From a virus: a stretch of DNA of 20,916 bases. The stretch covers positions 1-20,916 of the IMG/VR virus record IMGVR_UViG_3300036985_003676; one strand, 5' to 3'. The position numbers and the translations under genes are program-made. Positions 1-20,916 of this stretch are shown here, one piece after another; position 1 is the first letter of the stretch, and every line of letters begins with the position of its first letter. The notes under the pieces are model-generated. The model did not search any database. It was not told where the DNA came from and saw only the letters and a list, made by a program, of their open reading frames with translations.

Positions 1-527
1 AACAAAAACGAATTCAAAGAATAAAACTTGCAGAAACTGCATTGACAACCTATTCACAAAAAGTTGAAGGTGGTTCAAAAACACCACTTGCAGACACCAT
101 CAAAGACATTGCACTTTTGCAGACCTTTATTGCAACAATTCCAGCATTCGAAGATGGAACAGAAGACACTGGAAAGAATGGTCATGGTGTTGATGGAAAA
201 GGTGGTTTTCATGCAATCCTTCATCCAAATGAACGTGTTGTTCCAAAGCACTTGAATCAACAAATTGGTGCAATGTCAAATGAACAACTTGCAAAACTTG
301 CAACTGAATCAAGAACTGGAAGTCTGATGAAAGGTGACTTTCAATCTGCATCTGCACTTGACACTGCACTTCTTGCAAACAAGATTGATTTGTTGACTGA
401 AACCATTAAAAACAAACCAGAAACGAACATTGAACTTGGTGAAATAACACAATCGATGATGGAAATTGTGAAGACAACAAAAACTGGAAATACTAAAATT
501 TTTAACAGATACAAAATCAAACCATGA
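1..527 (+). CDS. Tail tape-measure protein, C-terminal part (5' end outside window)
   Basis: The frame is open from the left edge (first full codon at position 3), so this is the end of a longer gene; the TTG at 42 is not a convincing start. The visible 175 or so residues contain a Gly/Asp-rich stretch followed by AILHPNERVVP and then NQQIGAMSNEQLAKLA. This layout (Gly-rich loop, 'HPNERVV' or 'NGEYVV'-like strand, then a helix with MSN) is typical of the extreme C-terminus of tape-measure proteins of phages and prophages, which set tail length and line the tail lumen. It is followed, with a 4-nt ATGA overlap, by a tail-tip candidate, which matches the usual gene order. The assignment rests on this C-terminal pattern and on synteny, because the long helical body lies outside the window. 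Confidence 0.72.
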   Translation, partial: QKRIQRIKLAETALTTYSQKVEGGSKTPLADTIKDIALLQTFIATIPAFEDGTEDTGKNGHGVDGKGGFHAILHPNERVVPKHLNQQIGAMSNEQLAKLATESRTGSLMKGDFQSASALDTALLANKIDLLTETIKNKPETNIELGEITQSMMEIVKTTKTGNTKIFNRYKIKP

Positions 528-2248
528 AGCACTTTTTGAATGACATTGAAATTTCACCACGAAATCGGACTGACATTGGAATTGTTTCTGATTTCACTGG
601 AAATCCAGAAGTGATGAAATTGACAACTGACAATGTAATTTTACCACGTGAAGGAAATGAAATCATCAGAAATCACATTCAATCACAAGGTCTGTTTGAA
701 GGTGTTCCATATCGAATTGAATTGGATGGTGGTGTTGTTTTGAATTACTATGTTGACCTTCTTGATTCATCCACTAAATTCAAGAATTTTGAATGTGAAG
801 TTTCATTGAAGAAAAGGAAAGGTGAAGATGACTTTTTTGACAAAGCATCTGGTGCAACATTCGAATGGTTTCTTGCAAAAGGTGTCAATTACAATCTGGA
901 ATCAATTCCATACGTGGTGGTGACACCAAATCAAGTGGAACAAGCAATTTCACTTTTGATTTCACTTTATGTGATGGGAAAAGAACTTGTTTCTGCTGGA
1001 CAATCAGTTGTTGATGGAATTGCAGAAATCATTCAAGCATGTACACCAAACATCGGTGTTCCACCATCAGTTGACACTGGTGACATCATTGTTGCAGTCA
1101 TCAAAGGTCTTGCAAGGATTGCATATTTCATTCTTCTTCTTGCACTTGTTGTTGACCTTGCAACACAACTTTTCATGTTGTTATTTCCACCGATTCGATA
1201 TTTCAAAGGATGTAAATTCAAAGAATTGATGACAAAATCATGTCAATATCTTGGATTCACATTTGAATCAACATTGCTTGATTCTGAACCTAATTGGACA
1301 ATTCTTCCAGTTCCATTGGTGAAAGACAGACAATCAATTTTTGAATATCAACCAGCATTTTTGAACAATGCATTCAACAAAGGTGTTCCATCTGCATCAG
1401 ACACAACACCGACACTGCAATCATTCATTGAAGGAATGCAAACCATGTTCAATGGACAAATCAAAGTGAACAATGGTGTTGTCAGGTTTGAAAGACGTGA
1501 CTGGTGGATGAATCAAACAACAAACCAGATAATTCCAGCACTTTCACTGCAATCTGAACGTGATGATGAATTTCAATACAACACCGATGAAGTATGGAAA
1601 AGATATTACATCCATTACCAGACCGATTTCACTGAACTTCATTCATGTGATGGTGTACTTTATGACATCCACAATTGTGAATTTTCAACTGAACCGACAT
1701 CATTTGTCAATCAAGATTTGGTTTCAATCAAAGGATTGCAAGATGTGAACATTCCATTTGCACTTGGTGCAAGGAAAGAAAAACTGAACTGGTTGGAAGA
1801 AATAGCAAAAGGTCTTGCAAAAGTGATTGATGCAGTCACTGGAATCTTTGGTGGTGGAACAAACTATGAACAACAAATCGGTGACAGAAAGAATGTTTTG
1901 ATGATCTCACAACAATTTTTTGCAACAACAAAAGTCTTGTGGACAATCAATGGAAGACAACCAGTCAGTTTCAAGGACAAAGTCAGTGCAATTCAGTTGT
2001 GGAATCAATATCACTATATCCAGCAGATTCAGGAAAATGACTGGATATTGAAAAGTGATGTCAGAATTCAAATGACATCAAATGATTTCGTAACTTTGCA
2101 AGACAACAATTTTGCAATAATTGATGGACTGATGTGTGAAATCTTAAATTGTGAATGGATTGATGAAAAATCCTTCGCAAAAATCACATACAAACAAAGA
2201 AATCAATATGCAACTGGACACGTTTACACATTACAAATCAATGCATGA
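524..2248 (+). CDS. Tail-tip/baseplate-type structural protein with an internal hydrophobic segment
   Basis: A 574-residue protein starting in the ATGA overlap with the tape-measure gene. Its position directly after the tape measure suggests a distal-tail or baseplate-hub role, but no residue motif proves this. The N-terminal ~130 residues look like a beta-rich domain. Residues about 140-225 are strongly hydrophobic, with a core around 187-220 (runs such as FILLLALVVDLATQLFMLLF) that would score as a transmembrane helix or hairpin. The C-terminal half is beta-rich with many aromatic residues. A long hydrophobic segment in a virion protein is unusual and could insert into a host membrane during DNA entry; this is inference. 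It overlaps the next gene by 4 nt, so translation is probably coupled. Confidence 0.6.
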   Translation: MKHFLNDIEISPRNRTDIGIVSDFTGNPEVMKLTTDNVILPREGNEIIRNHIQSQGLFEGVPYRIELDGGVVLNYYVDLLDSSTKFKNFECEVSLKKRKGEDDFFDKASGATFEWFLAKGVNYNLESIPYVVVTPNQVEQAISLLISLYVMGKELVSAGQSVVDGIAEIIQACTPNIGVPPSVDTGDIIVAVIKGLARIAYFILLLALVVDLATQLFMLLFPPIRYFKGCKFKELMTKSCQYLGFTFESTLLDSEPNWTILPVPLVKDRQSIFEYQPAFLNNAFNKGVPSASDTTPTLQSFIEGMQTMFNGQIKVNNGVVRFERRDWWMNQTTNQIIPALSLQSERDDEFQYNTDEVWKRYYIHYQTDFTELHSCDGVLYDIHNCEFSTEPTSFVNQDLVSIKGLQDVNIPFALGARKEKLNWLEEIAKGLAKVIDAVTGIFGGGTNYEQQIGDRKNVLMISQQFFATTKVLWTINGRQPVSFKDKVSAIQLWNQYHYIQQIQENDWILKSDVRIQMTSNDFVTLQDNNFAIIDGLMCEILNCEWIDEKSFAKITYKQRNQYATGHVYTLQINA

Positions 2249-2469
2249 TGAAGGAAAATGAAACATTGAAAATGTTGGAAGGATTGACCAAAAGTCTTGA
2301 AGGAATTTTTGACATTCAAAAACAAGCAATTCAGCAAATTCCAGATGAACACATCAATCTGAAAATAAAAGCAACAAATGACATCGAATCATTGCTTGAA
2401 TCAATGAAGAAAGGTGAACTTGAAAAAATAATCGAAATTCAAAAAAGATATGCCGATTCAAATCATTAG
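2245..2469 (+). CDS. Small coiled-coil protein of the tail operon, function unknown
   Basis: A 74-residue, highly charged, helix-rich protein. It starts at an ATG overlapping the upstream TGA; a second ATG follows immediately at 2248. Heptad-like spacing of Leu/Ile through LEGLTKSLEGIFDIQ and later LLESMKKGELEKIIEIQ suggests a coiled coil. There is no signal peptide or membrane segment. Its 3' end overlaps the next gene by 20 nt in another frame. The tight packing between two large tail genes suggests a tail assembly or structural accessory role, but I recognise no family. Confidence 0.6.
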   Translation: MMKENETLKMLEGLTKSLEGIFDIQKQAIQQIPDEHINLKIKATNDIESLLESMKKGELEKIIEIQKRYADSNH

Positions 2470-4747
2470 TCAGAATTACACTGACATTTTTGGAAATATA
2501 AAACCATTTTATCAATGCAATGCTGGTGACGATATTCGTGCATCAATTGTTGTGAAATCATCGATTTCTGCATCAACTGCAACGGCTGGAACATCATTTG
2601 TTTTGAATCCAATTGACAACATTGTCACTGCATCTGGTGCAGTCAATTGGTTGACAGAAGGTTTTCGAATCGGTGACTTTGTGCAATTTATCAAATTCAG
2701 TGGTGGTGGTTCTGTCATCACTTCATGGATTACACTTGTGACAAATGTGACATCAACTGATTTGAATGTCAATTCAATTCCAACATGGATTGCAAGTGGT
2801 TCTGGTGAAATCATTCAAGTGACTTCATTGAATGTCACGTATGGACAAAAAAGAAGTTCACTGGTCATTGATGTCAATCATGTTGCAAATGGTTCTGCTG
2901 GAAGTAGTTTTTCACTGATTGATGGTGAACAAACAAGATTCACATTTGACTTGACAACTGCACTTCCAACACCACAAAGTGCAATTCAAATTGGAAATCG
3001 GTCTGGACAATTTAATTCAAGCATTCTAATCACTGATGTGACACAATCAATCACTGGTGTTCCACCATCATCATCAAATGTTTTGTATTATCGAATTGAT
3101 TATAAAACAATTCAGTCAGGAATATATGAACCTTCATATTTTGCATTCGGAAATTGCTTGAAATTCAATTCAAACATGAATTTTCAAAGAATTGCTGGTG
3201 AACCTTCGAACAACTATTTATTGAAATTGAACAATGATGCAGACACTGGTTGGTTTGATGAAGCATTCAATTCAGGAATTCCAGAAGCAACACTTGTGCA
3301 AGGTGTTTCAGAACTTGCATTCGATGCACCATCAACATTTCAAGTGGTCATTGATTCATCTTCTGCATCACATGGAATCGGTGCATCTTACATTCCAGAC
3401 AATGAACTATATTATAAAAACAAAATTCAAAGTCAGTCAGAACTTGGAATGACAATTCAATCATCAATCATTCCATTGTTTACACCAATTTCTTCACCAT
3501 TGAATCCAATCGGTGCTGGATATACATTGGAAATAATTTCGAACACATCGGTTGGAACAATTTACACAATCGATGTTGTCTTCACACCAAATACTGAATT
3601 CAACACATTCATGGATTCTTGTGATGAAGGTGACAGATTGTTCAGATTGTGGTTCAAGTTTGGAAATATAAATCTGCTTGTTTTTGATGACCAAGTGATT
3701 TCGAAACCACCAATTGGTGGACTTTTGGACATGGTTGTTTCAACATATCTTGACCATTCAGAAAATGTGACAGATTCAGGTGTTGTCAGTGCTGGATATT
3801 CAGCAGACATAGAAGATGACCTTGCATACATTGGAAAATTTAGACTTCCATTGAATGACAATTCCATTGAATCATTCACTGCACGAATTGAAGCATTGAA
3901 TGCAACAACTGGTGAATCATTCACATTGCAAAATGCATTTTTCAACATTGCAACAATTCCATTTGTGGGTGGAAAATACATCATCAATCAATCACAAGCA
4001 ATAATCACAACACTTCCAACAACATCAGTCAAACGAAATGCACTTTTGGTTCTTGAACCATCAATTGACACGATTGATCAATATGGTTTGAAAATATATT
4101 TTCCTTTCCTTTATAGGTGGGAATATTGGTTGCAACAATTGAACGCAGATTCTGATTTTTATCCAAATGATCAAACAAAAGACTGGTTTGAATATGGAAA
4201 TCATCCAGATTGGAATTTGAATCTTCATCTTGAACTTGTGAAAGGTGGTCTTGCATACATTTTTGATGACATTATTGACTTAAAAAATTACGATGCAAAT
4301 GACAACATCACATCAAACATTGAAATTTTCATTGATTCAACAAATCAAAATGTTGGAATTGTGACAGAAGGTCTTTTGATGCGTGTTGTTGGAACACATG
4401 AACTTGTTGATGGAACTGCATGGAATCCTTCTTCAATTTGGGGAATGTTGACCATTGAACCGAAAGAATCTGCACCACGATGGATTTGTTCCACAATTGT
4501 TCCGACAGATTTCAATTCACTGAATCCATTATCACCACTTTCTGGTGCATTGTGTGACTTGACTTTTCCAACACCAACAATTGCACGAATGGAATGTTTC
4601 TTCAATCCAGACAAAATCAATCTTGAAAATGGTGTGAAATTCACCACAAAAATCAAAGGATGTTCAGAATTTTACATTTCAGGAAAGCAAAAAACTGATG
4701 GAACATTGAAACAGAAAACTGATGGAACAATAAAGCAAAAATCTTAA
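2450..4747 (+). CDS. Large distal tail protein (fibre/receptor-region candidate) with short C-terminal repeats
   Basis: A 765-residue protein, rich in Ser, Thr, Asn and Ile and predicted beta-rich, with no membrane segment. The start at 2450 overlaps the upstream gene by 20 nt. Its size, composition and place between the tail tip and a jelly-roll protein suggest a tail-fibre, baseplate wedge or receptor-binding component. The last residues are a tandem repeat, KTDGTLKQ then KTDGTIKQ, followed by KS (nt 4691-4747), preceded by a partial KQ unit. Such tails could be an attachment peptide or a copy-number-variable tip. I recognise no enzymatic motif; the tail role is from context. Confidence 0.6.
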   Translation: MPIQIISQNYTDIFGNIKPFYQCNAGDDIRASIVVKSSISASTATAGTSFVLNPIDNIVTASGAVNWLTEGFRIGDFVQFIKFSGGGSVITSWITLVTNVTSTDLNVNSIPTWIASGSGEIIQVTSLNVTYGQKRSSLVIDVNHVANGSAGSSFSLIDGEQTRFTFDLTTALPTPQSAIQIGNRSGQFNSSILITDVTQSITGVPPSSSNVLYYRIDYKTIQSGIYEPSYFAFGNCLKFNSNMNFQRIAGEPSNNYLLKLNNDADTGWFDEAFNSGIPEATLVQGVSELAFDAPSTFQVVIDSSSASHGIGASYIPDNELYYKNKIQSQSELGMTIQSSIIPLFTPISSPLNPIGAGYTLEIISNTSVGTIYTIDVVFTPNTEFNTFMDSCDEGDRLFRLWFKFGNINLLVFDDQVISKPPIGGLLDMVVSTYLDHSENVTDSGVVSAGYSADIEDDLAYIGKFRLPLNDNSIESFTARIEALNATTGESFTLQNAFFNIATIPFVGGKYIINQSQAIITTLPTTSVKRNALLVLEPSIDTIDQYGLKIYFPFLYRWEYWLQQLNADSDFYPNDQTKDWFEYGNHPDWNLNLHLELVKGGLAYIFDDIIDLKNYDANDNITSNIEIFIDSTNQNVGIVTEGLLMRVVGTHELVDGTAWNPSSIWGMLTIEPKESAPRWICSTIVPTDFNSLNPLSPLSGALCDLTFPTPTIARMECFFNPDKINLENGVKFTTKIKGCSEFYISGKQKTDGTLKQKTDGTIKQKS
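4691..4738 (+). repeat. Two tandem 24-nt repeats at the 3' end of the large tail gene
   Basis: Two in-frame 24-nt units (4691-4714 and 4715-4738) share the first 15 nt exactly, AAAACTGATGGAACA, and differ only at third or silent-like positions afterwards, except for one Leu/Ile change. They encode KTDGTLKQ and KTDGTIKQ. A partial unit encoding KQ precedes them and KS follows before the stop. Confidence 0.85.
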
Positions 4748-4758
4748 AAATTTAAAAA

Positions 4759-5385
4759 ATGGCTAACGAAAAAATTCACGAATATCTTGATTCTGCAACA
4801 CTTTCAGATGTTCAAACACTTCCAGTGATGATTGATTGTGATGTTCAAGAAATCGGTGGTTGGATTTCAAAACAACTGGATGTGAAAAACATCATTGATG
4901 CATCAAATGACCAGTCAACAAGAACATTTGGTCAATTTCATGATGAAGGAAATCAGATTCACACACTTCCAAATGTTGCAAAAGCAATGAACATCAGTAA
5001 TGCTGACTATTCAAATGGTGTGTACATTGCAAATGACATTCTTGGAAATCCAACAAACATTGTTGTTTTGTCAGAAGGAATTTACAATCTTCAATTTTCT
5101 GCACAATTATATCGCACAAGTGGTGGTTCATCTGAACAAGTTTCAATTTGGTTCAGAAAAAATGGTGTTGACATACCGAATTCAAACACACACATGAATG
5201 TTGTTGCAAATTCAAGATACATGGTTGCATCTTGGAACATTTTTGTTGATTGTGATGTGAATGACACAATTGAAATCATGTGGTCTGTCACTTCAATTGC
5301 AATCACAATTCCATCAGTTGCACCAGATTTGATTGTTCCACATCCAGCAACACCATCATTGATTGTCACAATTAGCAAAATATAA
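4759..5385 (+). CDS. C1q/TNF-like jelly-roll protein, probable receptor-binding or fibre-tip protein
   Basis: A 208-residue protein with an A-rich leader (aaaatttaaaaaATG). From about residue 68 to the end it has the strand pattern of the C1q/TNF-like beta-jelly-roll seen in many Bacteroidota and Firmicutes phage tail proteins. There is a GIYNLQFSAQL strand, then QVSIWFRKNGVDIPNSNTHM, then YMVASWNIFVDCDVNDTIEI, then a final strand. The NGVDIPNS turn and the 'V-D-NDTIEI' strand are the most characteristic parts. Such domains usually trimerise and bind host surface glycans or proteins. The N-terminal ~65 residues probably attach it to the tail. It lies between two other probable tail proteins. 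Specificity cannot be read from the sequence. Confidence 0.72.
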   Translation: MANEKIHEYLDSATLSDVQTLPVMIDCDVQEIGGWISKQLDVKNIIDASNDQSTRTFGQFHDEGNQIHTLPNVAKAMNISNADYSNGVYIANDILGNPTNIVVLSEGIYNLQFSAQLYRTSGGSSEQVSIWFRKNGVDIPNSNTHMNVVANSRYMVASWNIFVDCDVNDTIEIMWSVTSIAITIPSVAPDLIVPHPATPSLIVTISKI

Positions 5386-5390
5386 AAGAT

Positions 5391-8592: not shown

Positions 8593-8648
8593 AAAAATAA
8601 TTCAATTTATTTTTGATTCTCAAACCATTGAATTCATTCGGTTTTTCG

Positions 8649-9754: not shown

Positions 9755-10360
9755 ATGAAAAAAACATCATTCATCCTTCACATGGATGCACTTTCAGTTC
9801 TGGATGAACTGACAAATGAACAATCTGGAATCCTTTTCAAAGCAATTCGTGACTTCAATTCTGGAAAAGAACCAGAATTGGACTTTGCAATGAAGATGTG
9901 TTTCATTCCTTTCAAGAATCAATTCACACGTGACTTCGAAAAATATGAAGTGAAATGTGAAAAGAATCGTGAAAATGGAAAATATGGTGGAAGACCGAAA
10001 AAGACAGAAACCGAAAAAACCGACATGGTTTCTGAAAAACCGAATCAAACCGAATCAAACCGAAAGAACCACGATAGTGATAATGATAATGATAATGATA
10101 ATGAAAATGATATTCTTTTGTTTGACATCTTCTGGAATTTGTATGGAAAGAAAATTGACAAAGCAAAATGTTTCAAAGCATGGAAGAAGATTCCAAAAGG
10201 AAAAAGAACATGGATTCAAGAACAAGCAAGAAAGTATGTTCAATCAACACCAGATGTCAAATTCAGAAAAAATCTTCTGACATGGTTCAATGGTGAATGC
10301 TGGAATGATGAAATTGAAGAAGTCAAAGTTGTTTCAACAAAATACATTCCAACACTATGA
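9755..10360 (+). CDS. Phage replication protein (DUF6291-type N-terminus, initiator/loader-like)
   Basis: The start is ATG 9755 (MKKTSFILHMD), just downstream of P3; the frame is open further upstream but lacks a good start. The product is 201 residues. The first ~85 residues match the DUF6291 pattern: an acidic 'LTNEQSG-LFKAI-DF-SGKEPELD' helix pair ending in the Gly/Arg/Lys turn GKYGGRPKK. A low-complexity linker with alternating Asp-Asn follows. The C-terminal ~75 residues (FWNLYGKK ... KAWKKI ... WFNGECWND) resemble the C-terminal domain of phage O-like or replisome-organiser proteins. The 4-nt overlap with the helicase gene supports a role in origin binding or helicase loading; which one cannot be decided here. 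Confidence 0.7.
   Translation: MKKTSFILHMDALSVLDELTNEQSGILFKAIRDFNSGKEPELDFAMKMCFIPFKNQFTRDFEKYEVKCEKNRENGKYGGRPKKTETEKTDMVSEKPNQTESNRKNHDSDNDNDNDNENDILLFDIFWNLYGKKIDKAKCFKAWKKIPKGKRTWIQEQARKYVQSTPDVKFRKNLLTWFNGECWNDEIEEVKVVSTKYIPTL
10077..10101 (+). repeat. Short GATAAT hexamer run encoding an Asp-Asn linker
   Basis: Four in-phase copies of a GATAAT-type hexamer (AGTGATAATGATAATG...) encode alternating Asp and Asn between the two domains of the replication protein. It is a flexible linker and a possible slippage site. Its AT-rich nature could also ease strand opening, but nothing shows this. Confidence 0.6.
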
Positions 10361-11631
10361 AACCAGCAATTGAACAAATTTTCGGTTTGATGATGCAACA
10401 AACAAGAACTGATTGCATTGAAACTTTCAGTCGAATTGATGAAAGATTCTTGAAGACTGGCTTTCAGAAACGAATTTATCAATCAATCAGTGAACTAATC
10501 AAACAAAAAAAGGACATTGACTTGTTGACCATCACATTGCAATTCAAAGAAAATGGTTGGTTTGACCAGAAAGTTGTTGTCCAGATTTCAAAGTTGACAT
10601 CAGAATCGTATTCATTAACCAGTGTTCTTCGATTGTCATCATTGTTTGAACAATGCATTCAAGAAGTTGTCTTTGAAAAAGCACTTGCAATCAGAAATCA
10701 AATCGATGTTCTTCTGGAATCAGAAAACTTGACCATGTCGAAATTTCATGACATCATTCAATCTGGAAATGATGTGAAGTTTGACCAGAAGAAAGACAAA
10801 TCCAATGTTGATGTGATATTTGAAGTTGTCGATGACCATATCAATGCAAAAGAAGGAAAGATTTGTGGAACTGGAATCGGTTATTCTTTCCTGAATCAAG
10901 TTGTTCTTCTTGAACCAGTGGATGTGATGGTTGTTGGTGCAAGACCAGCAATGGGAAAAACTGCATTCGGTGTCAACACAATGGTGAAGATGGTCATGCA
11001 AGGAAAGAAAGTTGCATTCTTTGCACTGGAAATGACAAAGAAACAGATGATTCGAAGAATAGTTGCAAACATTTCTGGAATCGATTCCAACAAAATAAAA
11101 TTCGGAAATTGCAGTCAAGAAGAAATGAATCGAATTTACAAAGTGCAAGAAATGGACATCTGGAAGAATCTTTTCATTTTTGAAGGTTCACATTCCATCA
11201 ATGACATTGCATCTGAAATGAACAAATTGAAACGTGAACAACAAATTGATTTGTTCTTTGTTGACTACATTCAAAAAATACAACCAAAAACATCACGTTC
11301 AAGATATGAAGTTGTTTCTGAAATAAGCAATGGACTGAAATTGATTTGTCAGAATCTTCAAATTCCTTGTCTTGCACTTGCACAACTTTCACGTGATTCA
11401 TCCAAAACTGGAAAAAGACCATCACTTCCAGACTTGAAAGAAAGTGGTGAAATTGAACAAGATGCATCAATTGTTGCATTCCTTCACAGACCTGAATACT
11501 TTGGTGAAGGTGAAACATACAATGGAAATGATTCAACAAATGTTTGTGAATTGATCATTGCAAAGAATCGTGAAGGTGAAATCGGAATTTGGGAAATGGT
11601 TGTTGATTTGAAAATTTCAAAATTCACTTGA
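10357..11631 (+). CDS. Replicative DNA helicase, DnaB family
   Basis: A 424-residue protein, close to the usual DnaB length. It has an N-terminal helical domain (about 1-100), then a RecA-like ATPase domain. Walker A is GARPAMGKT at 194-202. Walker B is LFFVDY with D303. The segment LALAQLSRDSSKTGKRPSLP followed by DLKESGEIEQDAS is the classical DnaB-type motif region. It should form a hexamer that unwinds DNA at the phage fork. It is translationally coupled by ATGA to the upstream replication protein, the likely loader or initiator, and its stop overlaps the next start (TGATG). No primase domain is present, so priming probably comes from the host or from outside this window. Confidence 0.93.
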   Translation: MKPAIEQIFGLMMQQTRTDCIETFSRIDERFLKTGFQKRIYQSISELIKQKKDIDLLTITLQFKENGWFDQKVVVQISKLTSESYSLTSVLRLSSLFEQCIQEVVFEKALAIRNQIDVLLESENLTMSKFHDIIQSGNDVKFDQKKDKSNVDVIFEVVDDHINAKEGKICGTGIGYSFLNQVVLLEPVDVMVVGARPAMGKTAFGVNTMVKMVMQGKKVAFFALEMTKKQMIRRIVANISGIDSNKIKFGNCSQEEMNRIYKVQEMDIWKNLFIFEGSHSINDIASEMNKLKREQQIDLFFVDYIQKIQPKTSRSRYEVVSEISNGLKLICQNLQIPCLALAQLSRDSSKTGKRPSLPDLKESGEIEQDASIVAFLHRPEYFGEGETYNGNDSTNVCELIIAKNREGEIGIWEMVVDLKISKFT

Positions 11632-11846
11632 TGAAAGCACAAATCATTGCAACAAGACAAATCATTCATTCAGATGATGCAAATGATTTCATCAGTGATG
11701 ATTTTGAATGGTTTGACAGACCGATTGAATCAGAAATGAAGAATCATGTCATGAACAATCAAAAGTTCCTTAAAATGCTTAAAAATGAAGAAATCATTTT
11801 AATTCATAAAAATCAATTATCAATATTTGACCATGAAGAAATGTAA
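11631..11846 (+). CDS. Small acidic protein between helicase and NinG, function unknown
   Basis: The ATG at 11631 overlaps the helicase stop (TGATG), and the product is 71 residues. It is acidic, with a helical middle (MKNHVMNNQKFLKMLKN) and a C-terminal QLSIFDHEEM. It overlaps the NinG gene by 14 nt. No family is recognised. The C-terminal QLSIFD resembles the sliding-clamp-binding (beta-clamp) consensus QLSLF, so it might be a clamp-interacting peptide; this is a motif-level suggestion. Confidence 0.55.
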   Translation: MKAQIIATRQIIHSDDANDFISDDFEWFDRPIESEMKNHVMNNQKFLKMLKNEEIILIHKNQLSIFDHEEM

Positions 11847-12384
11847 AAATTGCAAACAACCATTTGAACCACGATTCAGTTCACTTGAAAAGTTCTGCTG
11901 GAATCAAGATTGCAAACTGATTGAAGCAATGGAAAAGTTGTCGAAAATCAAGAAGAAACAAAAACTGGATGACAACATCAGATGGAAGGAAAAGAAAGAA
12001 TCATTGAAGACACTTCAAGACTATCTTCAAGAATTGCAGACACTGGTGAACACATTTGTTCGTTTACGTGACAGAAACAAAAGATGCATTTCATGCAACA
12101 AACCATTGAAAGCAAAATTTGATGCTGGACATTTTTTTTCAGTTGGTTCATATCCATCAATCAGATTCGATTTGACAAACATTTTCGGTCAATGTGTTCA
12201 CTGCAATCAACATCTTCGTGGAAATGTCCATGAATACAGAAAAAACATCACTAAACGAATCAGTCAAGAAGAACTGGAAGAACTTGAATTCAAAAGTCAA
12301 AGACCAGCAAACTTCATGAAACATGAAATCATTGAAATGATTGAAGAAATGAAAAAACGAATCAAGGAAATCAGATTGAATTGA
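11833..12384 (+). CDS. ninG: NinG-family recombination protein (HNH/zinc-binding)
   Basis: The start is taken as ATG 11833 (MKKCKNCKQPF); the upstream in-frame TTG is not needed. The product is 183 residues, near the length of lambda NinG. The first zinc site is C4-x2-C7 with C22 and C27. A charged helix (about 35-75) and FVRLRDRNKRCISC follow. Then comes DAGHFFSVGSYPSIRF, with the AGH and the G-SYPS-R-F pattern typical of NinG, and the second Cys pair QCVHCNQHLRGN with YR. NinG proteins take part in phage recombination and are thought to process branched or single-stranded intermediates. Here it closes the helicase operon and precedes the second early operon, which holds other recombination genes. 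Confidence 0.9.
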   Translation: MKKCKNCKQPFEPRFSSLEKFCWNQDCKLIEAMEKLSKIKKKQKLDDNIRWKEKKESLKTLQDYLQELQTLVNTFVRLRDRNKRCISCNKPLKAKFDAGHFFSVGSYPSIRFDLTNIFGQCVHCNQHLRGNVHEYRKNITKRISQEELEELEFKSQRPANFMKHEIIEMIEEMKKRIKEIRLN

Positions 12385-12785: not shown

Positions 12786-13400
12786 ATGGAAAAACAGAAA
12801 AGAACCAGAAGACCGAATCTGTCAACATCGGACTATCTTGAAGCATTCAAGAAGATGAAAATGGAAATTGACATCAATCCAAAAGTCAAGACTTCCAAAA
12901 TCAGTAAGGAAATAGGAATTTCAAACGTATGTGTTGCAAAACTCAAACAACTTGGAATCATTAATGAAACTGCACATGGTTTGTTTTGGTCTGGTATTGC
13001 ACCAACATCACAAATGGTGAAATCAGTCAAGTCATTGTTCAATGTTCCACCAGTGAAGAAAACTTCAAAGACAACAATCGGAACATCAGAACCAAAGAAT
13101 CTTGCACCACAAGGTGAAATTGAATTCAAAGAACCTGAATCAATCATTGACAAGCACTGGAATGAATCAATCAAAGAATGGAACACACGTGTTTCAAGTC
13201 AGATTGCAGAAAAAACACAAATGTTGATTCAGGACAAAGCACTTGTTGATTCATCATGTGTTTCTGATTTGATTGAATACGATTCACCAGAAGTTCCAGA
13301 AGCACCAAAAAAGGAAAGACAAAAAAGAACCACAAAATCGAAAGAAAGAATCTTTGAATTGAAGATTTTCGGTCTTGTTTTATTTACAATCAAATACTAA
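12786..13400 (+). CDS. Putative DNA-binding protein with N-terminal helix-turn-helix-like region
   Basis: A 204-residue protein. Residues about 35-70 (KTSKISKEIGISNVCVAKLKQLGII) have the helix-turn-helix spacing with a Gly in the turn. The middle is low-complexity (Pro, Lys, Thr, Ser), followed by a helical part (about 125-160). A very basic stretch (KKERQKRTTKSKERI) precedes the final FELKIFGLVLFTIKY, which looks like two beta strands. It sits between two unknown early genes upstream of the recombination genes. A regulatory or DNA-metabolism role is plausible but unproven. Confidence 0.6.
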   Translation: MEKQKRTRRPNLSTSDYLEAFKKMKMEIDINPKVKTSKISKEIGISNVCVAKLKQLGIINETAHGLFWSGIAPTSQMVKSVKSLFNVPPVKKTSKTTIGTSEPKNLAPQGEIEFKEPESIIDKHWNESIKEWNTRVSSQIAEKTQMLIQDKALVDSSCVSDLIEYDSPEVPEAPKKERQKRTTKSKERIFELKIFGLVLFTIKY

Positions 13401-14316: not shown

Positions 14317-14337
14317 AAACAAAAAAAACAATTAATC

Positions 14338-15069: not shown

Positions 15070-15089
15070 ACAATAAAAACAAAGAAAAA

Positions 15090-15506
15090 ATGGAAAATCC
15101 AATCATCAAAATAAGTGGACAAATCATCCACATCGGACAACTTGAAGTGATGTCTGAAAAATTCAAAAAACGTGAATTTGTAATTCAAACAGAAGGAAAA
15201 TTTCCACAAGAAATTCAAGTTCAGGTCACACAAGACAGATGTGACATTCTGAACAATCTGAAACATGGTGACATCATCGATGCATCCATCAATATTCGTG
15301 GAAGGTCATGGACATCAAAAGAAGGTGTCAAAAGGTGGTTCAATTCAATTGAAGCATGGTCAATAAATTACGGAAATTCATCTGGAACATCATTTGAACA
15401 AAAAACATTCCAGCAGATGGAACAAAAAGCACCAGAACAACCAGCACAACCAGAAAAGAAATCATTGTCATCATTCATTGATGAAGCAGATGACCTTCCA
15501 TTTTAA
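15090..15506 (+). CDS. DUF3127-family OB-fold, SSB-like protein
   Basis: The start is ATG 15090 behind aaagaaaaa; an in-frame earlier start lies inside the nuclease gene. The product is 138 residues. The OB-fold core carries KISGQIIHI, EKFKKREFVIQTEGKFPQ, QVTQDRCDIL, GDIIDASINIRGRSWTSKEG and FNSIEAWSI, which match the DUF3127 family of Bacteroidota and its phages. The C-terminus is a Gln/Pro-rich linker ending in DEADDLPF, very close to the acidic DDDIPF tip that bacterial SSB uses to recruit partners. It probably coats single strands made by the neighbouring nuclease. Confidence 0.85.
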   Translation: MENPIIKISGQIIHIGQLEVMSEKFKKREFVIQTEGKFPQEIQVQVTQDRCDILNNLKHGDIIDASINIRGRSWTSKEGVKRWFNSIEAWSINYGNSSGTSFEQKTFQQMEQKAPEQPAQPEKKSLSSFIDEADDLPF

Positions 15507-15517
15507 AAACCAAAGAC

Positions 15518-15730
15518 ATGAAATCAGAAGAATTGAAAGAACTGAATGCAAATGTGAAGCAGATGATTCAGTCACACATTGACAAGAATCACATCACATT
15601 GACCGAATTTGCACGAAATGCAAAGATTCATCAGTCACATTTGTGGGAATTCATGAACACCAAAGACAAGAAGAAAGGAATGCATTCCAGCACACTTGAA
15701 AAAATTGGTGAATTCCTGAATAAAAAATAA
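15518..15730 (+). CDS. Small XRE/Cro-type helix-turn-helix regulator
   Basis: A 70-residue protein; most of it is a single helix-turn-helix domain, with ITLTEFARNAKIHQSHLWEFM as helices 2-3 and a closing SSTLEKIGEFLNKK helix. It resembles the Cro/CI-type XRE fold, in which a short protein dimerises on operator DNA. It ends the recombination operon and is followed by a strong inverted repeat (15757-15783), which may be its operator or an RNA hairpin. Without a divergent promoter or integrase nearby, a lysogeny switch is not shown. Confidence 0.75.
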   Translation: MKSEELKELNANVKQMIQSHIDKNHITLTEFARNAKIHQSHLWEFMNTKDKKKGMHSSTLEKIGEFLNKK

Positions 15731-15756
15731 TTAAAAATAAATAATCAAATCAAATC

Positions 15757-15783
15757 AGACTGGTGTGAAATGCACACCAGTCT
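15757..15783. promoter_or_regulatory. Perfect 11-bp inverted repeat, 5-nt spacer
   Basis: AGACTGGTGTG (15757-15767), AAATG, then CACACCAGTCT (15773-15783). The dyad is much more GC-rich than its surroundings and lies in the 76-nt gap between the XRE gene and the next start. On the + strand no T-run follows, so it is not a classical terminator; it may be an operator or a leader/processing hairpin. Confidence 0.7.
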
Positions 15784-15806
15784 TCACATCTTAAAAAACA
15801 GAAAAC

Positions 15807-16217
15807 ATGAATCAAAAAACAACAAATCAGTTCATCAGTCTTGCATCAAGACTTGCAAAGTATGCAATCAGAAATTCTTTTTCAATTGGACATACTGAAA
15901 TCAAACCACAAGAATCAACAATGCTTGTCAAAATCTATCTTGCAGAAAGAACAGATGACAGATGGTCAATATCTTTTCAGAATCGAATCACGTATGAATC
16001 AATTGAAGTTGCTGGATATTCAAAGAAATTCAACTATGACTGGAACTTGACACAAAAAGACTTTGATGAAATGATTGTTCAGTTGATTGAAATCACTGCA
16101 AAACTTGAATCAGAAGAAGATGGTCAAGATGAAGTATTGATTCAATACAACACCATCAAAAGTCAAATTCAAGACTTGCAGAATGAATTGTCTGAAATTT
16201 CAAAAAAACTGATATAA
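15807..16217 (+). CDS. Unknown protein with C-terminal coiled coil
   Basis: A 136-residue protein with start MNQKTTNQFISLASRLAKYAIRNS. The first ~90 residues form a mixed alpha/beta region with several aromatic residues, and the last ~30 are a heptad-like helix (IKSQIQDLQNELSEISKKLI). No signal peptide or membrane segment is seen. Its stop overlaps the next ATG (TAATG), so the two are probably coupled. It lies after the hairpin region in the accessory segment. The function is unknown. Confidence 0.6.
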   Translation: MNQKTTNQFISLASRLAKYAIRNSFSIGHTEIKPQESTMLVKIYLAERTDDRWSISFQNRITYESIEVAGYSKKFNYDWNLTQKDFDEMIVQLIEITAKLESEEDGQDEVLIQYNTIKSQIQDLQNELSEISKKLI

Positions 16218-16600
16218 TGAAAAGCAGAAACTGGACACTGGAAATCGAACACTTTCAGAATGATGAAGGATTCGGAACAATCAAGTTCAATGGAAGAACT
16301 AATTTGATGTTTCAATTTGATTTTGACATCAACACAAGGTCACATGATGGAAATGGAAGGTTTGATGACATTGATGTCAAACTGCATTCATTTGAATTCG
16401 ATGATCAAAGGAATCACAAGGTTCAAATCAATCAAAGAAACACCACATTCATTTGCAATCTGATTGAAGAAATCATCAATGATGATGTCACTGCATTCGG
16501 TTTTGATTTTGATGACCATGATGAACTGATATTCGATGAAGAACCGACAATCTGGTCAACAATGTATTCTGGTCATCCATCACGTGTTCGTGACCTTTGA
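16217..16600 (+). CDS. Unknown acidic protein
   Basis: A 127-residue protein, acidic, with repeated Phe-Asp combinations (MFQFDFDIN, FEFDDQRN, FGFDFDDHDEL). Strongly acidic small phage proteins are sometimes DNA mimics that block host DNA-binding enzymes, but no evidence here goes beyond composition. It is coupled to the upstream gene by TAATG. Its TGA stop starts the string TGAAAATAAGTCACTAACTTTG, a promoter-like element. Confidence 0.58.
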   Translation: MKSRNWTLEIEHFQNDEGFGTIKFNGRTNLMFQFDFDINTRSHDGNGRFDDIDVKLHSFEFDDQRNHKVQINQRNTTFICNLIEEIINDDVTAFGFDFDDHDELIFDEEPTIWSTMYSGHPSRVRDL

Positions 16601-16611
16601 AAATAAGTCAC

Positions 16612-16619
16612 TAACTTTG
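16612..16619 (+). promoter_or_regulatory. ACTAACTTTG-class promoter box before a run of small genes
   Basis: TAACTTTG matches TAnnTTTG. The surrounding 29 nt from the upstream stop codon (TGAAAATAAGTCACTAACTTTG plus an A-tract) nearly match the element at 6870-6897, with one inserted and one changed base. The predicted start is near 16626, about 6 nt before ATG 16632. Confidence 0.6.
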
Positions 16620-16631
16620 AAAAAAAAGATA

Positions 16632-16814
16632 ATGGAAAAAGCAGAAAATACAAAGAAGAACATCGTGAAAATCGGTGTTCTTTTTCCAGACCATGATTTT
16701 GTTCTGGTCAATGGAATAAGCAAACGAATTGACAAGGAAAAGGAAATTGAACTTCCAGAAGATATGGAAGGATTCATTATTGAAATTCCATACATTGAAG
16801 ATGAAAAATCATGA
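16632..16814 (+). CDS. Small acidic protein, function unknown
   Basis: A 60-residue protein. The start is ATG 16632, directly after the promoter-like box; an earlier in-frame ATG lies inside the upstream gene. It is beta-rich (IVKIGVLFPDHDFVLVNG) with an acidic C-terminus. It heads a chain of four genes joined by 4-nt ATGA overlaps. No family is recognised. Confidence 0.58.
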   Translation: MEKAENTKKNIVKIGVLFPDHDFVLVNGISKRIDKEKEIELPEDMEGFIIEIPYIEDEKS

Positions 16815-16888
16815 AAAAAGCACTTGAAAAGGTTTCAGACATCATTTTTTTAATAGTTTTATCAATTTTATATAAAAATTTAGAATGA
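16811..16888 (+). CDS. 25-residue putative membrane microprotein
   Basis: The ATG overlaps the upstream TGA, and the product MKKALEKVSDIIFLIVLSIL then YKNLE is an amphipathic N-terminus plus a hydrophobic helix. Its stop overlaps the next ATG (ATGA). Its length, overlaps and helix suggest a genuine small membrane peptide, but very short genes carry a real risk of chance. Confidence 0.42.
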   Translation: MKKALEKVSDIIFLIVLSILYKNLE

Positions 16889-16977
16889 AAACAATCATCA
16901 GATGGTGGAAATTGATGTCATTCGTGACATCTGAAACACAAAAATGCAGAAACAATGGATTCGGTTCACATCAATGA
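16885..16977 (+). CDS. 30-residue microprotein, function unknown
   Basis: The product begins MKTIIRWWKLMSFVTSETQK. The gene is joined by ATGA overlaps on both sides. It is basic, with a double Trp near the N-terminus. No family is recognised; only the overlap pattern and the shared codon style support it. Confidence 0.38.
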   Translation: MKTIIRWWKLMSFVTSETQKCRNNGFGSHQ

Positions 16978-17006
16978 AGAAAATGTCGCAAATCGAAGAT
17001 AAATGA
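16974..17006 (+). CDS. 10-codon minigene linking two ATGA overlaps
   Basis: ATG 16974 to TGA 17006 encodes MKKMSQIEDK. Its start overlaps the preceding stop and its stop overlaps the ATG at 17003. It may serve only as a translational bridge to carry ribosomes to the next gene. It could be chance. Confidence 0.28.
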   Translation: MKKMSQIEDK

Positions 17007-17293
17007 AAATAATCAGATGCAAAATTGAATTTGACAATGGATTTCCAACTGAAAGAACCATCAAATGTTTGATGTCAGGTTATGGAATCGATTTTGAAGC
17101 AATTACATTCAGTGATGAATTCGGTCTTCAAGACAAATGTGAAATCTTCTGGAAAGAAGAAACAATCAAACAAAATATGTCCACATTCAGAAAGTTCCTT
17201 GAATTCAATGACATTCCATTGAAGAAGTTCAAATTGCATGGTCAAATTCATTCCATTACATTCAAACAAAAAGATTTTGTAACTTTGCAATGA
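17003..17293 (+). CDS. Unknown protein at the end of the overlap chain
   Basis: A 96-residue protein of mixed alpha/beta character with a Lys-rich C-terminal part. It has no signal, membrane segment or recognised motif. It starts in an ATGA overlap. Its final codons contain a promoter-like GTAACTTTGCAA (17279-17290) just before a terminator-like hairpin. Confidence 0.58.
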   Translation: MKIIRCKIEFDNGFPTERTIKCLMSGYGIDFEAITFSDEFGLQDKCEIFWKEETIKQNMSTFRKFLEFNDIPLKKFKLHGQIHSITFKQKDFVTLQ

Positions 17294-17305
17294 TTGATTG
17301 TTTTG

Positions 17306-17360
17306 AAATGGTGGTGCATCTTCGATTTTCTGTTTTGGTTTGGTGCATCATCATTTTTTT
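17306..17360 (+). terminator. Intrinsic-type terminator after the small-gene cluster
   Basis: AAATGGTGGTGCATC (17306-17320) pairs with GGTGCATCATCATTT (17342-17356) through 15 positions, with three G-U wobbles, and is followed by T residues to 17360. The loop is about 21 nt. The two arms also share the direct repeat GGTGCATC. It lies 13 nt after the preceding stop. Confidence 0.6.
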
Positions 17361-17377
17361 AACTTAAAAACAAAAAC

Positions 17378-17605
17378 ATGAACAAAAACGAAATTTTCAA
17401 ATTCATCATCGGTGTCATTTTAACACCAATACTTCTTGCAATTTACTTTGTTGACAGACAATTGCTGGTCATTTTACCACATTTGCAGTTGATGACCATC
17501 AGAAAGTGGTTTGAAAAGGTGGACAACATCATTCAATCATCAGTCAGAATTGTTGCAATCATTGCAATTGTTCTTCTGGTGAAGTTCTTTTTCTGGTTGT
17601 TCTGA
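17378..17605 (+). CDS. Small two-helix membrane protein
   Basis: A 75-residue protein with hydrophobic helices at about 8-24 and 56-75 and a basic connecting loop. Its stop overlaps the next ATG (TGATG). It is the first gene after the terminator-like hairpin, with an A-rich leader. It might be a second holin-like or superinfection-exclusion protein, but nothing specific shows this. Confidence 0.62.
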   Translation: MNKNEIFKFIIGVILTPILLAIYFVDRQLLVILPHLQLMTIRKWFEKVDNIIQSSVRIVAIIAIVLLVKFFFWLF

Positions 17606-17856
17606 TGTTCTTTCCAGATATGCACGAACATGAAGAAGATTCATTCGAATCAAGAATCAGAAATTCAGAAACCATGTCATCAGAATTCGATTGTTGCATT
17701 CTTGGTCAATCAAAAGATGGTCATGACATCTATTCATGGAAAAAGATGTTGAAAGTGGTCATGTCATTTGGTCTTGATGAATACGAATCAGAAGACTTCT
17801 TGTTCAGGACATCAATGTGTTTTGCAGATGACATCATCATCATGATGGACAACTAA
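17605..17856 (+). CDS. Unknown acidic protein before terS
   Basis: An 83-residue protein starting in the TGATG overlap (ATG 17605; ATG 17620 is an alternative). It has many Asp, Glu and Met residues and three Cys, with no membrane segment. No family is recognised. The stop lies inside a set of TAATCA half-sites that precede terS. Confidence 0.58.
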   Translation: MFFPDMHEHEEDSFESRIRNSETMSSEFDCCILGQSKDGHDIYSWKKMLKVVMSFGLDEYESEDFLFRTSMCFADDIIIMMDN

Positions 17857-17881
17857 TCAATAAATGATTAAAAACTAATCA
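17854..17881. promoter_or_regulatory. Three alternating TAATCA half-sites with 11-bp spacing upstream of terS
   Basis: TAATCA (17854-17859), its complement TGATTA (17865-17870) and TAATCA again (17876-17881) start exactly 11 bp apart, so they face the same side of the helix. They lie immediately before ATG 17883. The region is AT-rich and TAATCA occurs in other leaders, so it may be chance. Confidence 0.35.
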
Positions 17882-17882
17882 A

Positions 17883-18269
17883 ATGAATCAAGACAATATC
17901 GACAATTATAAAAAACAAATGATTGAAGCACTGCATCATTCCAATGGTGTTGTGACAACTGCAATTCAATCAGTCAAAATTCATCGGTCAACATTTTACA
18001 ACTGGATGAAAGATGATGAAGCATTCAAGCAAGAAGTGGATGACATACGTGAATCTGCACTTGATTTTGTTGAATCAAAGATGTTCGAAAGGATTGAAAA
18101 TGGTTCAGACACCATGATAATCTTCTTTTTAAAGACACAAGGCAAGAAACGTGGATATATCGAAAGGACACAACTGGATGTTCACAACACTGCACCAGAC
18201 TTTTCTGGTCTTTCAACTGATGACATCATCAATCTTTTGAATGAAAATGACACAAATTCAATCGAATAA
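17883..18269 (+). CDS. terS: Terminase small subunit
   Basis: A 128-residue protein. Residues about 8-45 form a helix-turn-helix of the terminase-small-subunit type (VVTTAIQSVKIHRSTFYNWM), followed by a conserved-looking DEAFKQEVDDIRESALDFVES helix and a FLKTQGKKRGYIER turn. These features are typical of TerS proteins that recognise the packaging site on the concatemer and present it to TerL. The length is typical. The C-terminus overlaps terL by 29 nt in another frame, which fixes the partnership. The packaging type (cos or headful) cannot be read from this gene. Confidence 0.87.
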   Translation: MNQDNIDNYKKQMIEALHHSNGVVTTAIQSVKIHRSTFYNWMKDDEAFKQEVDDIRESALDFVESKMFERIENGSDTMIIFFLKTQGKKRGYIERTQLDVHNTAPDFSGLSTDDIINLLNENDTNSIE

Positions 18270-19641
18270 GTCAATTCAGTTGAAGGAATTGTTGAAGTTT
18301 GAACTTTGCAAAAGACAATTCTGGATGTTCTGTCTGCACTATGACAGACAATTCTTCATGCAAAGACCTTTCTTGAAGGAAATTGCAGATGCATTTCAGG
18401 AAATCGAAGAAAGAACCATCACATCATTGTCAGTAAGTCTTCCACCACGTGCTGGAAAATCTTATATCACATCATTGTTTTGTGCATGGACAATTGGAAG
18501 GAATCCAGATCAGTCTGTCATGCGTAACACTTGCACTGCAACACTATTCTTGAAATTCAGTTACGATGTCAGAACAATTGTCAAATCAGAAAAATTCAAG
18601 CAGATATTCACCGATGTGGTCTTGTCTGATGACAAATCAAATCTTCAAGGATGGAACACCAACAAGACAAAACAAGTTGCATACTTTGGTGCTGGTGTTG
18701 GTGGAACAATCATCGGATTCGGTGCATCAAATGTTGCAATCACTGATGATTTGTATCGTGGAATTGAAGATGCATTAAGTGATACCATCAATGACAGAAT
18801 CAATTCATGGAAGGAATCAACACATGATTCACGTTTTGAACGTGGTTGTGCAAGGATTGACATTGGAACACGATGGTCATTGAATGATGTCATTGGAAAG
18901 AATATCGAATCAAATTCATATCAAAAGACCATCATGGTCAAAGCACTGGATGACAATGACCAGTCATTTTGTGAATCAGTCATGTCAACTGATGAATATC
19001 TTGACAAACGAAAGAAGACTGCAAATGAAATTTGGTGTGCAGAGTACCAGCAAGAACCAGTTGACATTGCTGGAAGGACATTCACTGACATCAGAAGCAT
19101 TTCAAAAGAAGAATTTGAAGACATTTCGAAAGGAAAAGATGAACAAGGAAATCCAATTTCATTGATTGAAGGTTGCATCGGATATGTCGATGTTGCAGAT
19201 GCTGGAATTGATTACACTGCACTTGCAATTTGTGCAGTCATCAAGAATGATTTGTTCATTGTTGACTATGTTTTTTCACGTGACAACACTGATGTGACCA
19301 TTCCATTGATTGCAGACAAATTGAACCAGTGGAATGTCAATTATTGTCGTGTTGAATCAAACAATGTCGGTGCAATGTTTGGAAGGAATCTTCAAAAAGA
19401 AACGAAATCACGAATCCTTCTGGTTCACAATTCAGTCAACAAGATGACCAGAATCATGATGCAGTCAGCATTCATTCAAAATCGGTTCATTTTCGTGAAA
19501 ACTGGTGACCAAAATCAAGAACTTTTTATTCAAAATCTTCTTTCATTTACCAAAGAAGGAAGGAACAAAAACGATGATGCACCAGATTGTTGTGCTGGTC
19601 TTTCAATATTTGTTCAATCAATGTTCAAAAATCTTCACTAA
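18241..19641 (+). CDS. terL: Terminase large subunit (packaging ATPase-nuclease)
   Basis: A 466-residue protein of typical TerL length. In the ATPase domain, Walker A is LPPRAGKS (67-74), and the Walker B strand is NVAITDD with D169-D170, where D takes the usual E place. In the RNase H-like nuclease domain, the acidic residues are D317 in YVDVADAG, E372 in RVESNNVG, and D445/D449 in DDAPDCCAG. It cuts concatemeric DNA and drives it into the prohead through the portal, whose gene follows. It contains the only GAG triplet I could find in the window (19042-19044). The start at 18241 (MKMTQIQSNK) lies within terS. Confidence 0.95.
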   Translation: MKMTQIQSNKSIQLKELLKFELCKRQFWMFCLHYDRQFFMQRPFLKEIADAFQEIEERTITSLSVSLPPRAGKSYITSLFCAWTIGRNPDQSVMRNTCTATLFLKFSYDVRTIVKSEKFKQIFTDVVLSDDKSNLQGWNTNKTKQVAYFGAGVGGTIIGFGASNVAITDDLYRGIEDALSDTINDRINSWKESTHDSRFERGCARIDIGTRWSLNDVIGKNIESNSYQKTIMVKALDDNDQSFCESVMSTDEYLDKRKKTANEIWCAEYQQEPVDIAGRTFTDIRSISKEEFEDISKGKDEQGNPISLIEGCIGYVDVADAGIDYTALAICAVIKNDLFIVDYVFSRDNTDVTIPLIADKLNQWNVNYCRVESNNVGAMFGRNLQKETKSRILLVHNSVNKMTRIMMQSAFIQNRFIFVKTGDQNQELFIQNLLSFTKEGRNKNDDAPDCCAGLSIFVQSMFKNLH

Positions 19642-19646
19642 CTTTG
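19639..19646 (+). promoter_or_regulatory. ACTAACTTTG-class promoter box before the portal gene
   Basis: TAACTTTG fits the Bacteroidota -7 consensus. It overlaps the terL stop (TAA 19639-19641) and is part of CACTAACTTTGTAAA, which recurs before the next gene. The predicted start is near 19653, giving a leader of about 16 nt to ATG 19669. A TTTG at 19609-19612 is slightly too far upstream for a standard -33 box. Confidence 0.6.
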
Positions 19647-19668
19647 TAAAAATCAAAAAGAAAAAAAT

Positions 19669-20871
19669 ATGAATCTGAACTTTTTTGATGCATTTTTCGG
19701 TTTCGGTAACAATGCAGACAATCGAATCATCAATGACATGAATCGAATCTTTCCTTTTGTAAACCAAATTTGGGGTGTAAAGGAAGCCGTTTGGATTGAC
19801 ACCAATGACTGGTGGAAATTATATCTGGAAATTCCTGAACTTCGAATGGTCATTGACAGACGTGCATCAATGATGTCATCAAACAAACCATGTCTTGTTG
19901 ATGCAGATGGAAATGAAGTCACAAATCATTGGTTCAATGATGTCCTGAACAAACCGAATCCAGTTCAGTCATGGTCTGATCTTGTTTATTCATTATCAGT
20001 TCAAGATGCATTGTATTCAAATTCATTCATTTATGCACCAAAAAGGTCATTTGACATCAGAAATTTGTTTGTTCCACTTCCATCAAACAAGATTCAAATC
20101 AATCTTTCAGGAAAGAAATTGAAGCAGATGGAACAAGAAGGTCTGATTGATTCATTCGTATTCCAATACGATGACAAGAACACTGAAAAAATTGAATTTG
20201 ATGACTTGATTTATCTGATGACAAATGATGGAATGAACATTGTCAAACCAGTTTCAAGAATGGAATCATTGAAATTTCCATTGTCAAACATCAAAGCATC
20301 CTATCACAAACGAAATGTTCTTCTGGAAAATATCGGTGCAATTGGTATTCTTTCGACACAAAACAATGATGTCGGTGGTGCAATTCCTATGACACCAGAA
20401 GAAAAGAAACAGATTCAACGTGACTGGTTCAGAAGACAGAAGGATGAATTGATAATCACTGAAAGTCAAGTTGACTGGAAGCCAATGTCATTTCCGACAA
20501 AAGATTTGATGTTGTTCGAAGAATTAACTGCAGACAAGATTGCAATCATTGACACGTTTGGAATGTCTTTGAACATCTTTTCAAGTGAAAAAGGTGCAAC
20601 ATTCACGAATGTTCGTGATTCAATCAGAATGTGTTATCAAGACACCATCATTCCAGAAACACAACAAATGTACGATGCAATCGGTCAACAAATTGGATTG
20701 ACTGATGAAGGATTGAAATTGATTGCAGAATTTGACCATCTTCCAGTGATGCAAGATGATGAAGTTGCAATTGCAACAACCATGAAGTTCAAAGCAGAAA
20801 CACTTGAAAAATTGAAAGTTCTTGGAATTGACATGACATCAGATGAAATGAAGACACTTCTTGGAATATAA
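19669..20871 (+). CDS. Portal protein (HK97-like)
   Basis: A 400-residue protein, the usual size for phage portals of this type, placed directly after terL. It shows a portal-like order: an N-terminal strand-helix part, PELRMVIDRRASMMSSNKPCLV, then the WFNDVLNKPNPVQSWSDLVYSL helix common to HK97-type portals, a central IKASYHKRNVLLENIGAIGIL helix, and a long C-terminal helical region ending with EVAIATTMKFKAETLEKLKVLG. It should form the dodecameric channel at the capsid vertex that binds TerL. The promoter-like box upstream suggests it opens the head-gene operon. Confidence 0.87.
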   Translation: MNLNFFDAFFGFGNNADNRIINDMNRIFPFVNQIWGVKEAVWIDTNDWWKLYLEIPELRMVIDRRASMMSSNKPCLVDADGNEVTNHWFNDVLNKPNPVQSWSDLVYSLSVQDALYSNSFIYAPKRSFDIRNLFVPLPSNKIQINLSGKKLKQMEQEGLIDSFVFQYDDKNTEKIEFDDLIYLMTNDGMNIVKPVSRMESLKFPLSNIKASYHKRNVLLENIGAIGILSTQNNDVGGAIPMTPEEKKQIQRDWFRRQKDELIITESQVDWKPMSFPTKDLMLFEELTADKIAIIDTFGMSLNIFSSEKGATFTNVRDSIRMCYQDTIIPETQQMYDAIGQQIGLTDEGLKLIAEFDHLPVMQDDEVAIATTMKFKAETLEKLKVLGIDMTSDEMKTLLGI

Positions 20872-20879
20872 AAAAACAC

Positions 20880-20887
20880 TAACTTTG
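20880..20887 (+). promoter_or_regulatory. ACTAACTTTG-class promoter box before the next gene
   Basis: TAACTTTG in CACTAACTTTGTAAA, 8 nt after the portal stop. TTG at 20861-20863 lies 16 nt upstream and may serve as the -33 element. The predicted start falls at about 20894, at or next to ATG 20893, so the transcript could be leaderless. Confidence 0.6.
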
Positions 20888-20892
20888 TAAAC

Positions 20893-20916
20893 ATGAAAGA
20901 AAATCAACTTTATTCA
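20893..20916 (+). CDS. Start of a gene cut by the window edge
   Basis: ATG 20893 with the first residues MKENQLYS, 21 nt after the portal stop and preceded by a promoter-like box and an A-rich leader. The position after the portal suggests a head maturation protease, scaffold or capsid gene, but eight residues cannot show this. Confidence 0.5.

Follow-up and report, generated by a model that had tools for sequence, protein, structure and literature searches.

Avoidance of short words by phages is usually weak, or falls on palindromes of 4–6 bp. Rusinov et al. 2018 observed that phages avoid mainly the sites of orthodox Type II systems, not those of Type I or Type IIG, and hardly those of Type III (PMC6286503). 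With BREX and Type IIL systems, asymmetric 6-bp sites such as GGTAAG and GATCAG are methylated on one strand (PMC11842806, PMC11341690). Nickases and methyltransferases with short targets have been described from chloroviruses, among them Nt.CviPII (CCD), Nt.CviQXI (R/AG) and M.CviQII (AG) (PMC7019647). Here we describe a phage genome fragment, and the clade of small phages of environmental metagenomes to which it belongs, from which the trinucleotide GAG and its complement CTC have been removed almost completely.

The stretch analysed (the window, 20,916 bases) comprises positions 1–20,916 of IMG/VR record IMGVR_UViG_3300036985_003676, one strand, and holds one GAG and three CTC against 353.6 expected for the pair under a first-order Markov model. 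The original prediction, read by eye, had placed the GAG at 19042 and the CTC at 1906, 8619 and 12942, in exact agreement with our count. These copies are given below together with the corresponding letters in G396, the full and near-complete record (31,598 bp) of the relative L003, which contains GAG/CTC once in all against roughly 600–660 expected.

1–20916, no strand: entire window; about 1% of the expected GAG/CTC, with TA, GGC, GCG, CCC, GACG and GATC purged too
1906–1908, + strand: CTC (GAG on the − strand), overlapping the GATC at 1903; TTC in G396
8619–8621, + strand: CTC, the sole intergenic copy; CTG in G396
12942–12944, + strand: CTC, in-frame Leu codon of a gene without assigned function (12786–13400); no aligned sequence in G396
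19042–19044, + strand: the sole + strand GAG, in-frame Glu codon of terL; GAA in G396

By the Markov, shuffle, room and intergenic counts alike, neither composition nor codon usage nor protein constraint accounts for this depletion. When codons were shuffled within each gene, which keeps both protein and codon usage, 168 GAG/CTC (96+72) were expected in the cross-codon phases, where only 1 occurs; this is far outside the range of such shuffles, the comparison proposed with the original prediction. Redrawing codons by base composition gave a minimum of 380 genic copies in 100 draws (3 observed), and intergenic DNA (1,124 trimer starts) contains 1 copy against 15 expected. Measured against the protein-allowed minimum, which is zero for GAG/CTC, the window retains 1% of the room left by its proteins. 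Codon bias is ruled out by the cross-codon and intergenic counts. On the coding strand the window has one GAG and two CTC, and G396 one GAG and no CTC, so that the depletion is duplex-symmetric; avoidance of Shine-Dalgarno sequences, which had been set aside earlier, is indeed no explanation, as CTC is purged equally.

The same pressure is visible in synonymous choices at codon borders, where the pattern described earlier is upheld: before G, Gly is GGT in 89 of 89 cases in the window and Arg is CGT in 43 of 45, never AGA or CGA. Met-Arg is written ATGCGT and ATGAG is absent, as had been claimed, although the two positions given were one base off (actual 4379 and 18520). In G396, Gly before G is GGT in 168 of 168 cases and Arg is AGA or CGA in 0 of 70; T is the last base of all T/C-ending codons that precede Ser-TC (197:0), Lys and Gln before AG are A-ending (48:0), and Glu is GAA (753:1). 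Escape in G396 involves all three GAG positions through transitions, transversions and two-step codon changes, and is nearly complete; with equal escape at all three positions, no single type of substitution is sufficient. The window and G396 share 91% DNA identity, and between them the third base differs at 52 of 436 Lys (12%) and 40 of 255 Gln codons (16%) but at only 1 of 402 Glu codons. We conclude with high confidence that the purge is due to selection on duplex DNA, and neither to codon bias nor to point-mutation bias. The proposal of selection at the duplex level is thus well supported by both strands, all codon phases, intergenic DNA, escape by transversion and depletion beyond codon-preserving shuffles.

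GAG avoidance had been presented as the headline; it does concern the strongest word, but this is one among many, and TA, at 0.21 of its Markov expectation in the window, is the largest in bulk. Across codon borders the window has 113 TA against 668 expected (codon-preserving shuffle), and TA is held at 10–17% of room in the window, G396 and G399. Strong avoidance also concerns GGC, GCG, CCC, GACG, GATC, AGCT, CCGG and ACAG[CG]. CCC (0), GCC (3), GGC (5) and GATC (11) are as rare in the window as had been described, whereas AGG, which had been called common, occurs only 125 times, about half the i.i.d. expectation. With 35 short words included in a synonymous-choice model, log-likelihood over 6,130 codons rose from -6115 to -3012. 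Counting, under a codon-preserving null, only words without a shorter avoided word inside, we found 34 avoided words in the window and 70 in three clade genomes jointly, compared to 11 apiece in two control groups, an excess that partly reflects sample size and TA-containing words. Several restriction-like palindromes are avoided (AAGCTT 0/16, CTGCAG 0/16, GTCGAC 0/11, GATATC 0/26), and CTGAAG is likewise among the dozens of words avoided by clade members. GAG itself is non-palindromic; palindromes are enriched among avoided 6-mers (odds ratio 5.8, p 0.003), with a p of only 0.08 for 4-mers. The tetranucleotide TGCA is 3.7-fold over-represented in the window and holds most of its GC dinucleotides, apparently because AGC, GGC, CGC and GCC are avoided. 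TA pressure seems to reach the proteins: compared with aligned G413, Tyr, whose codons contain TA, is missing from G396 at 77 sites and extra at 35.

The following genes of the window bear on its relationships and replication:

10357–11631, + strand: DnaB-like replicative helicase; no DNA polymerase recognised in near-complete G396
11827–12384, + strand: NinG/Rap junction endonuclease; no other HNH-like nuclease was recognised
18241–19641, + strand: terminase large subunit (terL), query for relatives and basis of the tree
19669–20871, + strand: portal protein (PF04860), nearest named relatives in Flavobacteriia phages

For gene content, 39 proteins of G396, with the tape measure protein left out, were compared with Pfam and PHROGs (best 25 PHROGs families). 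Terminase, portal, protease, capsid, DnaB, NinG, Erf, exonuclease, single-strand binding protein and DUF6291 were recognised; neither Pfam nor the PHROGs matches listed revealed a methyltransferase, a DNA polymerase or any gene for base modification. G396 therefore probably replicates with host enzymes, and the loss of words is the only evident protection of its DNA. Phages of this clade look lytic. The HNH fold of NinG probably accounts for weak PADLOC matches (PtuB-like).

Relatives were gathered by TerL searches of IMG/VR and placed on a FastTree TerL tree, in which the window, L002–L009 and L014 form one clade (support 0.99), with L009 (GAG 0.16) nested inside. The GAG purge is a trait of this clade. 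GAG/CTC totals are 4, 9, 26 and 53 in the relatives G399, G405, G398 and G397, respectively. Most of the relatives L015–L055 are ordinary (GAG about 0.7–1.0 of room). Sister lineages (L060, L079, L082, L030, L061–L065) avoid the whole of AG/CT, down to 9–20% of room, and also TA to a varying degree; in L079 and L082, where AG/CT is at 10–12% of room, CCGG and CGCG are in 5–7 fold excess. A group unrelated to the window clade (L109, L113, L117 and L119), traced by way of a NinG gene that is about 42% alike, has GAG at 0.17–0.27 and ordinary TA, and another (L110–L112, L118, L120–L122) avoids CG (0.06–0.13) and not GAG. The relatives thus display graded and alternative states, involving AG/CT, CG, GATC and GCG. 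Flanking bases have little effect on GAG in G396, G399 and G405 together (14 copies against 677, or 0.02 of the codon-shuffled expectation). In the partly depleted group F, GAGCT (2/42), GAGCG (1/17) and GAGAC (3/23) are nearly lost, while GAGCA (46/51; p 3e-10 against GAGCT) and GAGTC (15/18) are kept. A longer single motif hidden behind GAG was not seen in the window clade, flanks mattering in the partly depleted groups.

Some words have returned. GATC is present in the window (at 1903, 4076, 4169, 8544, 9605, 11553, 13998, 14953, 16403, 18508 and 19978), in L002 and in L005, and is missing from most other close clade members; none of the 11 sites is GATC in G396. Avoidance of GATC was apparently relieved recently in the window lineage. 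In G397, GCG stands at 65% of room and GAG still at 7%. The return of GATC and GCG implies that relaxation is quick once pressure lifts, and that GAG did not return when other words did implies that the pressure on it has lasted.

The nearest named relatives of the tail and portal proteins belong to phages of Flavobacterium, Polaribacter and Cellulophaga, and to judge by these proteins the host phylum is probably that of Flavobacteriia-like bacteria. No TerL relatives were found in bacterial genomes, and avoidance of GAG or AG on a comparable scale is missing from five Cellulophaga phages and one Polaribacter phage. Phages FpV4 and FpV9 are both recorded on Flavobacterium psychrophilum strain 950106-1/1. 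FPSV-S2, sampled to stand for the FpV9 type on account of tail gene matches like those of FpV9, avoids AG, GAG, TA and CATG, whereas FpV4 avoids CG (0.05) and keeps GAG. The present host alone thus does not set the words: either the long-term hosts of the two differ, or one is protected otherwise, or the cause is phage-borne. CG is nearly absent from the 88–90 kb phages FpV4 (L230, 0.05) and FpV21 (L232, 0.07), which the CG-poor group around L110–L122 resembles in its CG loss; the annotation of FpV4 lists no methyltransferase.

As the best explanation, in which our confidence is evenly divided, we suggest that many restriction-type defences with asymmetric sites were escaped by erasing their shared core, with purifying selection against GAG/CTC ongoing until recently. 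Hosts would be Flavobacteriia-like bacteria with many sequence-specific defences, for which restriction-modification systems and their kin, such as Type IIG/IIL, Type III and BREX, are candidates. Many of the asymmetric sites may have AG or GAG as a common core in which the methylated adenine lies beside G, and erasing that core would bring escape from all sharing sites at once, so that the purged unit would look 3 bp long here and 2 bp long (AG/CT) in the sister clades. Many further asymmetric recognition sites contain GAG, and the loss of some GAG contexts and retention of others in group F is expected if several longer sites contain it. We infer an immune enzyme as the agent, several systems sharing the GAG core, and the identity of the hosts. 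The original prediction of one restriction or BREX-type system acting on GAG is borne out as to selection on a duplex word; the single system does not follow, given dozens of purged words, the AG/CT avoidance of the sister clades, differing contexts in the partly depleted phages and differing words in two phages of one Flavobacterium strain. Several observations speak against a shared core. Nearly every GAG context is purged alike in the window clade, which fits one 3-bp target too; TA is avoided, which to our knowledge is not usual as a restriction signature; and the contrast between the two F. psychrophilum phages and the pattern of Rusinov et al. (PMC6286503) leave our confidence in the mechanism only moderate, while in duplex selection it is high.

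The other readings differ in how much of this they cover. We consider it rather unlikely that one immune agent alone (a nuclease, a nickase or a methylation-guided defence) has a true 3-bp GAG/CTC target and drives the purge, the sister clades having met an AG/CT variant. The small effect of context in G396, G399 and G405 and the existence of chlorovirus enzymes with comparably short targets (PMC7019647) would suit it; however, in the literature consulted we met with no bacterial enzyme that targets GAG as a 3-bp word, dozens of further words are purged, and the partly depleted groups vary by context. GAG/CTC could instead be a CRISPR PAM, removal of every copy leaving no usable protospacer. 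PAMs are typically 2–3 bp, asymmetric and independent of frame, and partial PAM depletion is known in phages (PMC12174588, PMC4246573). We judge this improbable, since such depletion has so far been reported only as partial, the palindromes and other words are left unexplained, and a search of 396 Flavobacteriales genomes gave no clear spacer match, only short, repeated or coding-like ones. For one 30-bp stretch of G397 (L179, 10931–10960), matches turn up at several positions in many Flavobacteriales genomes, spaced by about 100 bp in one genome; they are probably coding repeats, not spacers. That the bare 3-bp duplex motif is the target of an immune agent of Flavobacteriia-like bacteria, or of a CRISPR type in them with a GAG PAM, the clade having become invisible by deleting all copies from a 31 kb genome, is a proposal that we put forward tentatively.

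Explanations without host immunity fare less well. A phage's own nuclease of short specificity, e.g. the HNH-like NinG, might degrade host DNA, its word being purged from the phage. Phage lineages differ in their word sets even when they share one host strain, and chloroviruses do turn short-site nucleases on host chromatin (PMC7019647), but relatives with ordinary GAG, G413 for one, carry NinG too, and the matches listed for G396 include no further nuclease of this sort, which makes this quite improbable. Context-dependent mutation through editing, repair or methylation damage would delete GAG without selection, and the window's excess of CA/TG where TA and CG are low (Markov) is what transitions would yield. 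We regard this as very improbable: the unusual mutational process offered earlier is disfavoured because each of the three positions has been escaped almost completely, and not only through transitions but through transversions and two-step codon changes too; no phage polymerase, deaminase or methyltransferase was recognised in G396 among the matches listed; and the sampled bacterial genomes show no such depletion. A phage methyltransferase combined with deamination was considered and rejected, no such gene being recognised in G396 (GAG-free) or G411 (CG-poor). Finally, the phage might copy the codon usage or genome signature of its host, as phage composition often resembles that of the host. 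Cross-codon and intergenic depletion render this very improbable, as does the ordinary word use of the temperate F. psychrophilum phage 6H. GAGGAG is present in 395 of 395 Bacteroidota genomes (minimum near 57 per Mb), and 18 stretches from those of lowest density have GAG at at least 0.41 of expectation; the host-wide depletion that had been named as a counter-test is therefore absent from the sampled Bacteroidota genomes, which may not include the true host.

A near-complete phage genome has lost more than 99% of its expected copies of one trinucleotide, and the series of relatives shows how far selection can recode a genome. If erasure of defence sites is the cause, the missing words would be a readable record of past defences and could predict the targets of the hosts' immune enzymes.

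This is similar to restriction-site avoidance (PMC6286503) in that short duplex words, several restriction-like palindromes included, are lost from both strands of a non-temperate-looking phage with no recognised modification genes, but the top word is a non-palindromic trinucleotide, shorter than the usual sites, and dozens are purged together. As in PAM depletion (PMC12174588, PMC4246573), the word is asymmetric, 2–3 bp long and affected in any frame or strand, although the loss is near-complete here, with no CRISPR link found, and partial there. Chlorovirus enzymes demonstrate that targets of 2–3 bp, AG included, do exist; those viruses, however, infect eukaryotic algae and protect themselves by methylation, and AAG, part of the R/AG target, is not avoided in the window (PMC7019647). 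Phage avoidance of BREX and Type IIL sites is not commonly reported, and no such system has been tied to these phages, but the sites are likewise asymmetric, 6 bp long and in some cases AG-ending, comparable to the avoided CTGAAG, ACAG, CAGG and GAG (PMC11341690, PMC11842806). Set beside these systems, the purge looks like site erasure against bacterial immunity, carried further than in the cases found in the literature.
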